This document shows positions 17,326 to 30,933 of a stretch of 38,509 nucleotides of DNA, piece after piece (position 1 is the first letter of the stretch; every line of letters begins with the position of its first letter). The notes under the pieces were generated by a model. It saw only the letters and a list, made by a program, of their open reading frames with translations, had not been told where the DNA came from and made no database searches. Origin of the DNA: a virus; IMG/VR virus record IMGVR_UViG_3300047564_002485, positions 1 to 38,509 of that record. The stretch is one strand, 5' to 3'. The position numbers and the translations under genes were made by a program.

Positions 17326-18720
17326 TCACATGAGATTCTTAACTTGTACTCTTCTGTAGTAACGGTTTGCGTTAACTTGAAGACGACCAAGAGCAGAGTC
17401 GTTGGTTCCCTCAGCGAATGGGTTGGCGACCAGACCATATCTGGTCTTAAAGCCAATCTTTGGCTGGAAGGAGTTCTCACCAACGGCACGTACCATTTGG
17501 AGAGGAACATATGGGCAATAGAAGAGTCCAGCGTCATAAGGTGAAGAACCCTTATAACCTACAACATAGTAGTGAACTCCATTTGCATTAGGAAGGTTTG
17601 CCGAATAAGGATCGATGTATACACGATACTTACCAGCAAGAATACCAGCAAAGGTGTTACCAGTATCATCAACATTCAGGTTAGCATTGAGTGCTGGGGT
17701 ATAATCCAGAACTCCTGCCATGGTGAGAGCGGAAGCAACGTCTGCAGAGCAGAGGATCATGTTGCCCTTTCCTCTACGAGTTCTTTGGGCAATTGCGTTT
17801 GCATCACGCTCAATTTGGAAGATCAGACCTTTGAACTTCTCAACTGACCAACGACCGTTGGAGTCAACATCAAGGTCAAAAATTCCATTGGTTGCTACGT
17901 TTTGCTGAGCACCCGATTCAGCGACCTTATAGATGGTTCTGATGACTTCACGGTTGATTTCAGCAAGAATCTCAGTTGACAGAATGTTTGCCAACTCAGC
18001 TTCTGCATTCAGACCGTGAATTGCCTTGAGGTCCTGAGCAAGCTCAAGGGTGTACTCGGCTTTCAGAGCTCTTGACTTTGCAGTAACGGTGACTTTCTCA
18101 ATCGAGAATGCCATCTCGTTGAAAGCATCATTGCCAGTTCCAAGAGCTTCTGCCTGAGCAGTGCCCATTCCCTGACCTACGCTGTAGGTAGTGGCGGTTT
18201 GACCAGACTCTGGGTTAAGAAGACCTGGGTTGCTGCCTGCTTGAGCAGTAGTACCCATACCAACAGAAGTGCCGGTATTGTACTGATTGAAGTTGAATTC
18301 GTCACTCTGACCAGAGAATCCGGTATCAGCTTCGTTGAAGAGAGCTTCAGTACCGCTCTGATTAGCGTAGCGTGAACGCATTGCGAAGATGAGTCCAGTA
18401 GGACCGTTCATTGGTTGAACACCAGCCAGGTCATAAGCGACCAGGTTAGGCATTGAACGTCTGATGAGTGAAATCAGAACTGGATCGAAACCGGCAACAG
18501 GTGAAGATGCATCAGCACTGAAACCTGCTGCGCCAGTTGTTGATTGAGTTGTGCTACCTTCTGAAAGGAACTCACGCTCCTCACGAAGTGCTTTTTCTTG
18601 GTTCTCCAGGAGAACGGCAGTTACCATTCTACGATGCGAGTCTCTGATTGGATCAAGACCATCGTAATCTAGGAGTGGTGCCCACTTCTCCTGCAGATGC
18701 TCTGCATTGAACATTTGCAT
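17326..18720 (-). CDS. gp23: Major capsid protein gp23 precursor
   Basis: The main head shell subunit, 464 residues. The N-terminus FNAEHLQEKWAPLLD and the segment FDPVLISLIRRSMPNLVAYDLAGVQPMNGPTG (split here by position, about 78-109) are hallmarks of T4-type capsid proteins. A prohead protease site LSE lies at residues 52-54, before GSTTQS, so about 54 residues would be removed, compared with 65 in T4. The ATG at 18720 has an AGAGG Shine-Dalgarno nine bases upstream. The ATG two codons later is spaced too far. A strong terminator follows. Confidence 0.97.
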   Translation of the reverse strand: MQMFNAEHLQEKWAPLLDYDGLDPIRDSHRRMVTAVLLENQEKALREEREFLSEGSTTQSTTGAAGFSADASSPVAGFDPVLISLIRRSMPNLVAYDLAGVQPMNGPTGLIFAMRSRYANQSGTEALFNEADTGFSGQSDEFNFNQYNTGTSVGMGTTAQAGSNPGLLNPESGQTATTYSVGQGMGTAQAEALGTGNDAFNEMAFSIEKVTVTAKSRALKAEYTLELAQDLKAIHGLNAEAELANILSTEILAEINREVIRTIYKVAESGAQQNVATNGIFDLDVDSNGRWSVEKFKGLIFQIERDANAIAQRTRRGKGNMILCSADVASALTMAGVLDYTPALNANLNVDDTGNTFAGILAGKYRVYIDPYSANLPNANGVHYYVVGYKGSSPYDAGLFYCPYVPLQMVRAVGENSFQPKIGFKTRYGLVANPFAEGTNDSALGRLQVNANRYYRRVQVKNLM

Positions 18721-18769: not shown

Positions 18770-19882
18770 TCACTTTTTAGAAACTCTTTGAAGAGTCTGG
18801 AGATAAGTACCCATTACTCCTTCAGCAAGAACTGAATTCTTAATGTCGTACTCTACTTCTTCAGACAGATTTTCAGAAATGTTTCTTTGAGTACCAGTGT
18901 TAGTGGAGAAATAAGAATTTCTCAAAGTTACCAGTTTCTCACGATAGTTTGCTTCACAATCAAACTCAACATTTTCCGCCAGAGAAGCGAGTTTATCCTT
19001 TTGCGAAAGTGCAAGACCTTCGGAAACTTCTGCAAAGACTGCAGTAATAACTGACTCAGCTAATCTCTTATTAAGAGCAATATTCTTTTCGATTTGCTCG
19101 TTGAGTTTTGTCTCCATTTCATCAAGTTTATCTACCATATTCTCGATAACATCATATCTATCTTCAGGAACAGTTACATAATGATCTTCAAAAAGACCTC
19201 TCATTCCAGCAAGGAATGATTCAGTCATTTCATTTTTGAGCCCGTGCTCAATTGCAATTTCGTTTTCTTGCATCCACTCATCAGATGCATACTCTAAATA
19301 TGCATCTACTCTTTCTACAAGTTCAGACTTAATTGATTGAATTTCTTCAATCAATTGCTCTTGATATGCTACTTCCAAGTCTTCTTTGATTTCAGCAATT
19401 TTAGATTTAATTGCTGCTTCAAAAATAGTACGTGCTTTCTCTTGAAACTCTTCAGACAATTCTTCACCTGCAAGAAGAGCATCCATATCTTCTTCAATAT
19501 CAAATTCTTCTTCTACCTTCTCTTCTTTTTTAGATTTCTTTTTGGAAGAAGGATGCATATCATCATCCTCCTTCTTCTTATCCTTGTCATCTTCTTCCGA
19601 GTGGGAAGCTTCTAAGAGTTCATCTTCTTCATCATATTCAGACTCCTCTTTAGCAACAGACATCGGTTCAGCTGCAACTGCTGATTGGTTAACAACATTC
19701 TTAACTGATTTAAGAGTTGCTCCTGGCATTTTGAGTTGAGCCGAATTATCGTCTGGGCGATAATTTTCGGGAGTAGGACCACCGAGATCTTCCCATGACC
19801 CAGTTTTATTCATTGGCTCGGCAGGTGCTGCCCCTTTGGTTACTACGTTTTCCATTTCTTGTAAATTTCTACCAACGGACAT
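18770..19882 (-). CDS. gp22: Prohead core scaffold protein gp22
   Basis: The main internal scaffold of the prohead, degraded by gp21 during maturation. The 370-residue protein is very acidic. A central region of Glu, Asp and Lys runs is followed by long helices with coiled-coil character, for example DKLDEMETKLNEQIEKNIALNKRL. Several (L/I)-x-E sites are present, including LQE near residue 9, LLE before ASHSEE and LSE before EFQEK, consistent with processing into small internal peptides. T4 gp22 is shorter (269 aa). Gene order gp21-gp22-gp23 is as in T4. Confidence 0.94.
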   Translation of the reverse strand: MSVGRNLQEMENVVTKGAAPAEPMNKTGSWEDLGGPTPENYRPDDNSAQLKMPGATLKSVKNVVNQSAVAAEPMSVAKEESEYDEEDELLEASHSEEDDKDKKKEDDDMHPSSKKKSKKEEKVEEEFDIEEDMDALLAGEELSEEFQEKARTIFEAAIKSKIAEIKEDLEVAYQEQLIEEIQSIKSELVERVDAYLEYASDEWMQENEIAIEHGLKNEMTESFLAGMRGLFEDHYVTVPEDRYDVIENMVDKLDEMETKLNEQIEKNIALNKRLAESVITAVFAEVSEGLALSQKDKLASLAENVEFDCEANYREKLVTLRNSYFSTNTGTQRNISENLSEEVEYDIKNSVLAEGVMGTYLQTLQRVSKK

Positions 19883-19923: not shown

Positions 19924-20574
19924 TTAAAGATTTGAAAGAAACTGCTGAAACAATTCAACTTTATGTTCCTGTAGTTTTCTTTCATCAACTAGTGTGTTAA
20001 TTCTACGCTTTGTGGATTCTGATAGTCTTTCACGAAGAATTCCTCCTTCCCAAACCCATTCTTTACCTTCCATGATTCCTTGAACAAAGGCATCAGGTGC
20101 AGATGGATCGGCAACAATATCTGCCGCAGTTGCAAGCATAAAATCTTCACCAACTACTTTATGACCCTCATTGGTCATTTTAAGTGATCCAACACCACGA
20201 GAAGAAACGCCAAGGCAAACACCCTCTTTAATCAGAGACATTGCAATTTTGCCCATCGGGGTTTCAAGAATTTGAGCCTTACCGATGAAATTTTTTCCAT
20301 CTTTGTAAAGTTCACAAATTTTGTGTGACACCCTATCAAGATTTACGGTAGGTCCATCTGGGTGGCCCAGTTCTCCAAGAGCACGACCTTTTGCGACAAA
20401 ATTTTCATTGTAACGATTCACTTCACGTTCCATAATAGACATGGGATACATTCTCCCATTTCTATTAACTTGCTCTGCTTGTAAGAAGATTCCCTTGATG
20501 TAACATCTTTGGGAAGAACCCTTACCTTCAGTAATAAATTCTACTTTTGATACTTCTTCTGTGATGAGTTTCAT
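19924..20574 (-). CDS. gp21: Prohead core protease gp21
   Basis: The serine protease that matures the prohead by cutting capsid, scaffold and internal proteins after (L/I)-x-E. The 216-residue protein has the family motifs NRNGRMYP (about 37-44), GELGHP with the catalytic His71, and LGVSSRG with the nucleophilic Ser near 124-125. These match the herpesvirus-assemblin-like protease family that contains T4 gp21 (212 aa). It lies between the small head genes and the scaffold gene gp22. Confidence 0.96.
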   Translation of the reverse strand: MKLITEEVSKVEFITEGKGSSQRCYIKGIFLQAEQVNRNGRMYPMSIMEREVNRYNENFVAKGRALGELGHPDGPTVNLDRVSHKICELYKDGKNFIGKAQILETPMGKIAMSLIKEGVCLGVSSRGVGSLKMTNEGHKVVGEDFMLATAADIVADPSAPDAFVQGIMEGKEWVWEGGILRERLSESTKRRINTLVDERKLQEHKVELFQQFLSNL

Positions 20575-27659: not shown

Positions 27660-28997
27660 TTAATAAATCTCTCTCCATCTAATAGAAACACCTACGTTGG
27701 TACTAGCATCACTTATATTAGTTACACGAACTGAAAATAGTTCTGAGTCTGTTGAATCAAAACTTTGTGCTATGTAATTTTTCTTAGATGATGGTCCTAA
27801 TTGAGCATCTGCAGTTGTTGCTGATGGTTTTTGTGAATTTTGACTTTCTCCCGCAGCATAACCACCCATAAAATCTTCAAAATATACAGTGCTAATTCCA
27901 GTAGCACTTTCATTAAATTCAACCACAGATTCTGTATTCTCAGAAACCCAAGTTCCTGTCGAATTGATGCCAACAGAACTTCTTAATTTTACAACCTCAT
28001 ATTTTACATTTGCTCCATTACTAAAGACGGAAACATCTTCAAGTTTTACTGTTGCTCTATTTGGATATCCTTTAAATGAATTCTTGAGCCTAATTGCAAT
28101 AATTGGAACTGTACTACCAATACCAACAGTCCTAAGGTTCGTTGTATGTGAAAATTCTCTACCCGCTTCCACGTATCCACCTTCACTCATTACAGTAGAA
28201 CAAATTTGAATGAAAGAACCGCCAGCACCTACTTGTGTTCCTACATTTCTAACCTCACATCTTACTGGAAGATTTGGATTAGACATATAAACTGTTGGAA
28301 GAACATTTGAATTATAAAATTCGTGGGCAATAAGATTTAATCCATTAATACTAAATCCACAACGAACTCTACCCACACCCAACCATTCAAAATCAGTCAT
28401 GAATAATTGAGTTTTTGTAATGTCTAAATTAAATCTAGAAGGACCAGTTCCATCGAGTTTATCTTTATTCCATTCTGATTGAGTAACTCTTCTATCTGAT
28501 GCAATACCAGTTACATAAGATCTAATTACAAAACTCAAAGTTCCATCTGGTGCTTGCTCAAAGAAAATACCATCTCTATCATCAAAATATCCAGTCCTCT
28601 TATAAACATTTTGTTGTGCTGCACCAAAATTGAATGTTGAATAAATTACCTGAGATTTACCGGGCATATAATGATGGTATCTCTTTGTCTGGTGAATGGT
28701 ATATCCATCAGTACTAATACCAGAACTTAAAATTGCTGCTGCTTGATTGGCATCAAAACTTACATTTGCACCAGTACCTACTTTAACATCTATAAAATCG
28801 GGATCAATAGAATAAAGATGCTTATAATCTCCAAGAGTGTAAGGACTTGATGTTCTCAGTCTTCCAAAAGCATCTCCAGAAAATCCCTGACCAAGATCTT
28901 CATAAATTTGACCATACTTATCAGCCCTCATATAAACTTCAAAGAGGGTTCTTTCCTGATTTAGATAATCTTGTTCGTTCTTATTCCACTGAGCCAT
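27660..28997 (-). CDS. Virion structural protein, 445 aa
   Basis: Recognised as a family of large structural proteins found in T4-like cyanophages. The N-terminal part contains GQGFSGDAFGRLRTSSPYTL and a QTKRYHHYMPGKSQ segment. The rest is beta-rich with many Gly, Thr and Ser residues. The final strand VGVSIRWREIY is typical of such proteins. No catalytic motif or signal peptide is visible. It is encoded three bases before gp17 in the transcript, so it is expressed with packaging and tail genes. Its location in the particle cannot be read from the sequence. Confidence 0.8.
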   Translation of the reverse strand: MAQWNKNEQDYLNQERTLFEVYMRADKYGQIYEDLGQGFSGDAFGRLRTSSPYTLGDYKHLYSIDPDFIDVKVGTGANVSFDANQAAAILSSGISTDGYTIHQTKRYHHYMPGKSQVIYSTFNFGAAQQNVYKRTGYFDDRDGIFFEQAPDGTLSFVIRSYVTGIASDRRVTQSEWNKDKLDGTGPSRFNLDITKTQLFMTDFEWLGVGRVRCGFSINGLNLIAHEFYNSNVLPTVYMSNPNLPVRCEVRNVGTQVGAGGSFIQICSTVMSEGGYVEAGREFSHTTNLRTVGIGSTVPIIAIRLKNSFKGYPNRATVKLEDVSVFSNGANVKYEVVKLRSSVGINSTGTWVSENTESVVEFNESATGISTVYFEDFMGGYAAGESQNSQKPSATTADAQLGPSSKKNYIAQSFDSTDSELFSVRVTNISDASTNVGVSIRWREIY

Positions 28998-29011: not shown

Positions 29012-29323
29012 TTATTCAGACCATGAGAGTCTTTCTGGTTGATATCTTTGTGCGTTTTTAACCTTGATAGAACTAGTTGAATTTGGATAAATGTTATGGA
29101 CAATTGCACCAGGATATTCATCTTGCAATTGTTCAGCAAGTTGATTTTTTGAAATCATTTTACCTTCCAATTCCATACGATATATCTTACCGTTCCAAAC
29201 TACGTCGGCAATAAAAGATTCTTTAGATAATTCAGGTTGTGAAGAACCATTCATATAAAGATTTCCGTTAAAATCTCCAGAAATATTAATACTTTCTGAA
29301 ATGAATTGATTGAAAGATTTCAT
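29012..29323 (-). CDS. Putative capsid-targeted internal protein, 103 aa
   Basis: The chosen ATG overlaps the upstream stop (TAATG) and has a strong GGAGGTG Shine-Dalgarno. The N-terminus MKSFNQFISES aligns residue by residue with the T4 capsid targeting sequence MKTYQEFIAEA of internal proteins: Lys2, an aromatic at position 4, Phe7, Ile8 and Glu10, with the gp21 cleavage point after Glu10. In T4 this 10-residue signal sends proteins into the prohead core. The mature part would be a 93-residue small soluble protein, including VVWNGKIYRMELEGKMI, of unknown function. It may therefore be packaged and injected, but this is inferred. Confidence 0.75.
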   Translation of the reverse strand: MKSFNQFISESINISGDFNGNLYMNGSSQPELSKESFIADVVWNGKIYRMELEGKMISKNQLAEQLQDEYPGAIVHNIYPNSTSSIKVKNAQRYQPERLSWSE

Positions 29324-30933
29324 TAGTTGCACCTCCAGCGGCGTAAAGCTTTGTTAATTCTTGAATCTGGATCTCTGGCAGTTTCTGCAGATGTTAATCT
29401 TTTTTTCATCCCACTCATTCTACTGCAAAAGTTTTTTCTACGCTGAGCTCTCTTCCCGGAAGGATTTTTTTCGGTTACTGCTGTCTGAAGTTTAGAACCT
29501 GGATTCTCACGACGATAAGCATCTACTGCTGATTGACTCAATCCATCCGTGTTGTCTTTACGATTAACTTTTTGCCAATCTTCACTAACTAAATCACTAC
29601 CAATACCTCTAGTTGGTTGTAGAGGATCCGGTTTTATCAAATCAACAAACTCAAAGGTTGTTGGATTTAATTGCAACTCTTCTCTCCAATTTGAATACGT
29701 TTCTTTCACACAAGAACCTGGAGAAAACTTTTTAGTTTTGGGTTTTCTTTTATATCCCGGCCAACAAGATTCACCAACATCATGTTCACCACTTTCAATG
29801 TAATCTGCAGCAGTATCTAGATAATCTGCTGCTTTAGTAATTTTTGATTGAACCCATGCTTCAATATTACCCTCACCTTTCATTTTTTTCCTAATTCTTT
29901 TTGCAGCTGCAATGATTGTGGAGATTTCTGAACGAGCCATCGAATATTCATGATCTGGTTCCTTGGACTCATTTGCTGGATGAGGTCTATTTGGATTATA
30001 TTTAATTTTATTAGTGGAAATTAAATCATCCGTTGATATTTTTTCATATCCAGAATACGGCAAGGTTGTTTTAAAATCATTTTTATTTGAAATTACCTCT
30101 GCTGGCAACGAGAACATATCCCAATATTTGACACCGTACTTACATTCATTTCTTGTTTCAAGCTTCTCACACTTTGGACAATATCTATCTGCTCTTTCAC
30201 GAATTGGAGTGTCCCAATCATAATTTAAGGACATTGAGTTTTCTTCAGTTTTTGTTCCCCAATTTGCAGCGCCAACTTTTCTACATTTTACAAGTGCTCC
30301 TGATGCATATGCACTTGGCCAAACATCATATCTTGAACGAACCTTATGGTAGCAAGCATCTTTTTTACCACTACCTTTACTTGGTTTGTCCTTTACTTCT
30401 TGTAAGTCCATTTCCTCTTTCCTTGTTTTTCTATCTGTTTGCACCATAGTTGGTTTAGCAGCACCAGATTTTTGTGGTTGATTTGGGTCTTCTCTTCTTT
30501 TTGCTGCCTGTGCGGCAAGCCTTTCTTCTCTACTCATTGAAGCACGTTTTTCGGAAGAAACGCATTTTGGAGTCGCAGTTTCTCCCTCCTCTCTTGCACA
30601 AGCATCGCCATCTACAACATCAACCCAACCTGGTTTTTTATTTTTTGATTTAGATTTACCAAACCAATCACGAAGACCTTCTTCCTTTATATTTACATCT
30701 TTAAACTTTTTATGATGCTTTTTGGCATCTGCCTCCATTTTTTTCAAGCGAGTATAATAATCAGGAATTTCATCAAGATGCTGCAAAGCAATGTATTTTG
30801 CTAATGTGTGATTTTTTGTATGCTCATGCTCAATAGGTTCACCCATATCAAGTTGCCTTTGTATGAAAGAAACACTGAGGCGGTGTTTCTTTGCAATTTG
30901 TTCAACCGTTTTATGGGGTTTGAATTTATTCAC
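29323..30933 (-). CDS. Modular multidomain protein with DUF5661-like N-terminus, 536 aa
   Basis: A mosaic of short domains. Residues 5-70 resemble DUF5661, with IEHEHTKNHTLAKYIALQHL and IPDYYTRLKKME. Residues 86-165 form a basic module with CAREEGETATPKC. Residues 185-226 hold YDVWPSAYASGALVKCRKVG. Residues 240-320 include CPKC at 252-255 and Cys264, possibly zinc binding. Residues 355-385 form a helical AWVQSKITKAADYLDTAADY segment. Residues 490-536 hold a basic end module with FCSRMSGMKKRLTSAETA and RINKALRRW. I recall similar pieces as separate or shuffled units in other large phages. IKE (82-84) and LQE (177-179) lie between modules. Function unknown. Confidence 0.8.
   Translation of the reverse strand: MNKFKPHKTVEQIAKKHRLSVSFIQRQLDMGEPIEHEHTKNHTLAKYIALQHLDEIPDYYTRLKKMEADAKKHHKKFKDVNIKEEGLRDWFGKSKSKNKKPGWVDVVDGDACAREEGETATPKCVSSEKRASMSREERLAAQAAKRREDPNQPQKSGAAKPTMVQTDRKTRKEEMDLQEVKDKPSKGSGKKDACYHKVRSRYDVWPSAYASGALVKCRKVGAANWGTKTEENSMSLNYDWDTPIRERADRYCPKCEKLETRNECKYGVKYWDMFSLPAEVISNKNDFKTTLPYSGYEKISTDDLISTNKIKYNPNRPHPANESKEPDHEYSMARSEISTIIAAAKRIRKKMKGEGNIEAWVQSKITKAADYLDTAADYIESGEHDVGESCWPGYKRKPKTKKFSPGSCVKETYSNWREELQLNPTTFEFVDLIKPDPLQPTRGIGSDLVSEDWQKVNRKDNTDGLSQSAVDAYRRENPGSKLQTAVTEKNPSGKRAQRRKNFCSRMSGMKKRLTSAETARDPDSRINKALRRWRCN

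Follow-up and report, generated by a model that had tools for sequence, protein, structure and literature searches.

A probable T4-like capsid targeting sequence at the N-terminus of the cyanophage protein family phrog_1742 and of unrelated cyanophage proteins

INTRODUCTION

The internal proteins IPII and IPIII of phage T4 are small cargos that carry a ten-residue N-terminal capsid targeting sequence (CTS), MKTYQEFIAE, which ends in an (I/L)-x-E site for the prohead protease gp21. Residues 4 and 7 of the CTS matter for targeting, while residues 8 and 10 matter for processing and cleavage; the proteins that T4 loads with this signal include some that are ejected (PMC9026906).

In cyanophages, an enzyme of the NMNAT/cytidylyltransferase type has been found in the virions of S-SM1, as T4-GC190 (PMC3037559), of S-SCSM1 (PMC9602691), of S-SZBM1 (PMC9146016), and of S-CREM2 and S-CBWM1 (PMC10665884). 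The available text of these four reports allows that the protein could also be carried over from infected cells, and nowhere ties its presence to a targeting sequence. A literature search combining cyanophages with the capsid targeting sequence found no paper linking the two; both terms occurred only in a T4 review. Here, a small cyanophage gene of the family phrog_1742, whose product starts with a CTS-like decamer, is compared with these systems.

RESULTS

The phrog_1742 gene and its surroundings

The DNA analysed (38,509 nucleotides, hereafter 'the window'), a 38.5-kb virus record, comes from a T4-like cyanophage. Its closest named relative at the DNA level is Synechococcus phage S-SRM01 (77% identity over 40% of a 21.5-kb stretch), which was obtained from a freshwater reservoir, so that the marine origin assumed in the initial annotation is not shown. 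The relevant features are collected in Table 1. The translation of the phrog_1742 ORF opens with MKSFNQFISESINISG / MKSFNQFISESINISGDFNGNLYMN, that is, MKSFNQFISE|S, and its ATG shares one base with the stop codon of the upstream gene (TAATG). On the minus strand the order of genes is gp14, gp15, gp16, the gene for a DUF5661/DUF6321 protein, the phrog_1742 ORF, phrog_1645, gp17 and gp18 to gp23, including gp21; gp14 and gp17–gp20 were named from their position and from the annotation of relatives. This packaging and virion gene order around phrog_1742 is conserved across the phages inspected, in every one of which the gene directly 3′ of phrog_1742 is either virion structural (the usual annotation) or unnamed.

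Table 1. Coordinates in the window of the phrog_1742 ORF, its parts and the neighbouring genes discussed
Feature	Position	Strand	Remarks
phrog_1742 ORF, 103 aa, stop codon included	29012..29323	-	ATG at 29323, stop ends at 29012
GGAGG ribosome-binding site	29332..29336	-	8 nt before the phrog_1742 ATG, from sequence
MKSFNQFISE, codons 1-10, putative CTS	29294..29323	-	gp21 predicted to cut behind E10 (29294|29293)
Linker, codons 11-35	29219..29293	-	pLDDT mostly <50; first half conserved, S(I/V)(N/T)IxGDFNG; model and alignment
Beta-beta-alpha-beta core domain, codons 36-80	29084..29218	-	pLDDT mostly ∼90 or above; homologous to DUF6321 domain
Upstream neighbour, DUF5661/DUF6321 protein	29323..30933	-	Homologue SSCSM1_29 detected in virions by MS; PMC9602691
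Downstream neighbour, virion structural protein phrog_1645	27660..28997	-	Homologue S-SZBM1_190 detected by MS
gp21 prohead protease (Peptidase_S77)	19924..20574	-	Domain match
gp22 prohead core scaffold	18770..19882	-	Presumed CTS-binding core
gp23 major capsid protein	17326..18720	-	Propeptide end FLSE|GS, almost the same site as FISE|S

Conservation of the N-terminal decamer

The product matches the phrog_1742 profile, annotated as of unknown function, over residues 1–101 (E 1.7e-39). Homologues with at least 80% coverage occur in 135 phage records, all of them Synechococcus or Prochlorococcus cyanophages, and among the matches of this coverage listed each begins at residue 1. Homologues were also found in 279 IMG/VR stretches. 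The pattern M-[KR]-x-[FY]-x-x-F-[ILM]-x-E was kept in all 180 environmental homologues extracted, a figure that slightly favours conservation of the full tag because one of the six seeds used in the environmental scans was the N-terminal peptide itself; the phage-record search is free of that bias. In the family alignment the entropy is zero at F7 and E10, positions 5, 6 and 9 drift, and position 8 is M instead of I/L in some homologues. As aligned, the conservation thus falls on the residues that have been mapped functionally in the T4 CTS. It is not limited to the tag, since residues 11–22 are conserved too, and the N-terminus could therefore serve another role.

The initial annotation had called this N-terminus a near-exact T4 signal. 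Five of its ten residues (M1, K2, F7, I8 and E10) are identical to those of MKTYQEFIAE and position 4 is aromatic in both, so the wording was too strong. The underlying observation of a T4-like tag stood: the ORF is genuine, all 180 homologues keep the pattern, and the motif is specific to gene starts. Counted over the window and two complete cyanophage genomes, [KR]x[FYW]xx[FYW][ILVM]xE followed the start Met at 5 of 906 ORF starts and occurred at none of 170,131 internal positions. A DNA version of the pattern lacking the ATG was counted genome by genome; ten genomes held 43 matches, and 29 of these stood right behind an ATG (∼1.1 expected). Since these counts contain homologous genes, the binomial figure overstates independence, and it is safer to go by how many unrelated families carry the tag. 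The DNA pattern also picked up T4 ipII and ipIII, which provided a positive control.

A predicted gp21 site at the end of the tag

The gp23 propeptide encoded in the window ends in EFLSE|GS and those of other cyanophages in FLYE|A, FLYE|S, FLAE|A or ILTE|A, the exact cut in gp23 having been placed by analogy with T4. The FISE|S of the phrog_1742 product, and the FLSE|S of many homologues, fit a site of this type. The window encodes both a gp21-type protease and, where the tag ends, an (I/L)-x-E site, as had been proposed, and cleavage of the tag by gp21 after E10 is plausible on these grounds. The sequence spanning the site is SFNQFISESINI, and the putative mature N-terminus starting at S11 would be SVNISGDFNGNLY.

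The same tag on unrelated proteins

The initial annotation had suggested searching cyanophages for the same N-terminus on unrelated proteins. A looser pattern gave 35 matches in 15 cyanophages plus T4, and its reversed control gave 2. When the mature parts were clustered, the cyanophage proteins bearing the tag fell into at least ten unrelated families. Besides phrog_1742 these include the NMNAT/cytidylyltransferase family (phrog_395), an RlpA-like double-psi barrel (PF03330), a 67-aa protein with a weak HiPIP match, a DUF6321 protein and several unnamed proteins; the T4 matches were ipII, ipIII and gp61.1. The last of these is a 54-aa hypothetical protein (T4 18966-19130; L115 / L297 567-731) that starts with the CTS-like decamer MKTFKEFIKE.

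Tagged NMNAT/cytidylyltransferases were seen in L117, L118, L119, L121, L014, L015 and L093, and as SSCSM1_91 (L128 39819-41048). Their tags vary: Syn33_182 (T4-GC190) begins MKKFSAFLTEA and SSCSM1_91 begins MKSFLQFLKEA, while the NMNAT-type S-SZBM1_140 begins MRFRQFIIEA, a variant one residue shorter. These enzymes occur in the same phages as phrog_1742 and share its CTS-like N-terminus, but they are unrelated to it, are encoded elsewhere in the genome, and have been seen in several virion proteomes. For S-SCSM1 and S-SZBM1 the N-termini read are those of the virion NMNATs themselves; the T4-GC190 tag is that of the Syn33 protein.

RlpA-like double-psi beta-barrel proteins (L099, L101) likewise bore CTS-like N-termini, as did a further, unassigned family (L085, L095); judged from their sequences, it is possible that both groups are head-packaged cell-wall proteins. 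The 67-aa protein is a cysteine protein (L111 1501-1701; S-SRM01 47292) with a CTS-like start, and its HiPIP match is marginal (E 6e-5). The tagged S-SZBM1_192 (L124 4504-5001), a DUF6321 protein starting MKTFKQYITE, adjoins the phrog_1742 gene on its upstream side, so that two tagged genes stand in tandem. In SSCSM1_93 (L128 42626-42835), a 69-aa virion protein detected by MS, it is the C-terminal end, KKRTFKEFLEYIE, that resembles a CTS.

Virion proteomes of phages that carry phrog_1742

The phrog_1742 member was missing from both published virion proteomes of carrier phages (S-SCSM1 and S-SZBM1). In GenBank, SSCSM1_30 is annotated as 'hypothetical' and is flanked by two genes marked 'virion protein' (the virion list for this phage was taken from GenBank notes so marked, and may differ slightly from the 45 proteins listed in the paper). 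Similarly, S-SZBM1_191 is not in Table 1 of PMC9146016, whereas S-SZBM1_190 is. Proteins of 61–122 aa were detected in these studies, so that small size alone does not explain the missing product, although a small protein at low copy may have escaped detection; S-SZBM1_191 is predicted to yield usable tryptic peptides. Copy numbers in the hundreds, as in T4, are therefore unlikely. Two of the five CTS-like proteins of S-SCSM1 and S-SZBM1 were detected, both of the NMNAT type, numbers too small to demonstrate an association. Of the initial proposal that the protein is packaged inside the head, the targeting signal is well supported, while presence in the mature head, with some negative evidence against it, stays a proposal.

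The mature part is related to a DUF6321 module

AlphaFold2, run on 54 sequences from the window and IMG/VR only, predicted a short helix at residues 4–9, low confidence over most of residues 9–32, and a confident core at 36–80. The predicted 93-residue mature part is acidic (net charge -2; family range -7 to -2). A Pfam search of the product gave no match, and no sequence relative of known structure was found in the PDB at E values up to 10.

The core matched the DUF6321 protein of S-CAM9 (HMM E 2.7e-7), and its comparison with the DUF6321 domain gave reciprocal tblastn matches and an HHalign probability of 97.6% (E 3e-12). A Foldseek search with the core retrieved the DUF6321 proteins of P-HM1 and S-CAM9 and an S-SCSM1 virion protein. 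In several phages, DUF6321 proteins with this module are encoded directly upstream of phrog_1742. In SSCSM1_29, a virion protein detected by MS and homologous to the upstream neighbour in the window (E 3e-71), the module is weak by HMM (E 0.07), and in the neighbour itself, which starts MNKFKPH and has no CTS, a module copy was undetectable. This neighbour is multidomain and has a homologue in virions; no function is described for its family, and a literature search for DUF6321 was empty. Sharing its core with DUF6321 virion proteins encoded nearby, the phrog_1742 product looks like a tag joined to one module of the adjacent virion-protein kit. The DUF5661/DUF6321 virion proteins (phrog_727, phrog_3477; SSCSM1_29), some of which hold a copy of the module and whose genes lie directly or nearly directly upstream, are by contrast large and multidomain.

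Among structures in the PDB, the top fold match of the core was T7 Gp2 (Foldseek probability 0.99, TM 0.63 by target, E 0.18), an inhibitor of bacterial RNA polymerase. Structural alignment (VIA) gave a Z of 4.4, typical of common arrangements, with an rmsd of 2.6 over 49 residues; the two share at most a small beta-beta-alpha-beta arrangement of a common kind. Profile comparison with a 16-sequence Gp2 alignment gave an HHalign probability of 0.3% over 8 columns. Gp2 requires R56 and R58 for binding (PMC3541766); both, in strand 3, are invariant in the Gp2 set, while the equivalent phrog_1742 strand, VHNIYP (aligned by eye), has no arginines. Homology to T7 Gp2 was therefore rejected.

DISCUSSION

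The phrog_1742 product shares with T4 IPII and IPIII a ten-residue N-terminal tag with K2, an aromatic residue at position 4, F7, I8 and E10, an (I/L)-x-E site for gp21, a small cargo, and a phage background with gp20–gp23 and gp21. It differs from them in being conserved family-wide and in being no more than a candidate virion protein. Its mature part showed no sequence relation to IPI, IPII or IPIII, is acidic where those proteins are basic, and clusters apart from ipII and ipIII; together with the lack of a Pfam or PDB match, this places it outside the T4 internal protein family. As the same tag is found on unrelated cyanophage proteins, one of them seen repeatedly in virions, it is probably a real loading signal. 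The broader finding, a cyanophage CTS on many cargos with a known virion enzyme among them, is of greater interest and draws on sequence together with published MS.

We consider it probable, from the sequences, that the phrog_1742 tag targets the protein to the prohead and that gp21 then cleaves it. The product would be made late in infection, at the same time as proteins of the head and neck. Through F4 and F7 its N-terminal helix would bind the gp22-type prohead core, and the protein would be carried into the prohead, where gp21 would cleave behind E10, leaving a mature product of 93 residues made of a flexible arm and a beta-beta-alpha-beta module. Core binding, cleavage, a low copy number and any delivery with the DNA are inferred steps, and the best reading is of a cargo that is either present at low copy in the virion or lost on maturation.

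The fragments of T4 gp67 and gp68 are degraded or leave the head on maturation, and the phrog_1742 product might likewise be a transient component of the core, brought into the prohead by the same signal and then degraded or released, with a role in head assembly rather than injection. Absence from two virion proteomes despite a strong CTS, a location among the late virion genes, an overlapping start preceded by a ribosome-binding site, and a conserved L-x-E (LAE/LTE/LVE) in the helix of the module, which could be an internal cut site, all speak for this; however, the small folded module looks stable (pLDDT ∼90), and a single-domain cargo with one clear terminal site is more like the internal proteins than a scaffold, which leaves this alternative possible but doubtful. 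Since it includes the prohead-targeting step, the likelihoods given to the alternatives are not exclusive of that given to targeting and cleavage. The initial annotation went further and saw an injected effector acting on host defences, a claim that found no direct support. A protein packaged with the DNA that binds a cyanobacterial host protein, for instance RNA polymerase in the manner of T7 Gp2, would have a precedent in the ejected CTS proteins of T4 and a hint in the top fold match, but that match failed the sequence tests given above and neither published proteome lists the product; we regard such an effector as unlikely.

In all phages inspected the next gene downstream is virion structural or unnamed, and the N-terminal helix, rather than being a head signal, could direct assembly with a different late product such as phrog_1645; the protein would then serve part of the neck or tail as a chaperone or partner. 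The ten-residue pattern is, however, also found on unlinked, unrelated genes such as those for NMNAT, which a partner-specific tag fails to explain, and this proposal appears a little less likely still. A motif this short and degenerate might arise by chance, yet its restriction to gene starts against 170,131 internal positions, and its retention in 180 homologues, make a fortuitous resemblance very improbable.

Beyond phrog_1742, it is conceivable, if somewhat short of an even prospect, that T4-like cyanophages load unrelated proteins into their heads by means of one ten-residue address and deliver them with the DNA, some acting on the host early. The repertoire would then comprise NMNAT/cytidylyl-type nucleotidyltransferases, RlpA-like double-psi barrels, small cysteine proteins and the phrog_1742 module, and some of these cargos would act on the cyanobacterial host within the first minutes of infection. 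If this were true, a CTS-like decamer would simply account for the recurring presence of NMNAT in virions, a reason absent from the available text of the MS papers, and ten residues at gene starts would list the candidate head-carried proteins of cyanophages, providing a small number of testable candidates for early manipulation of the host by viruses of the main photosynthesisers of the ocean.
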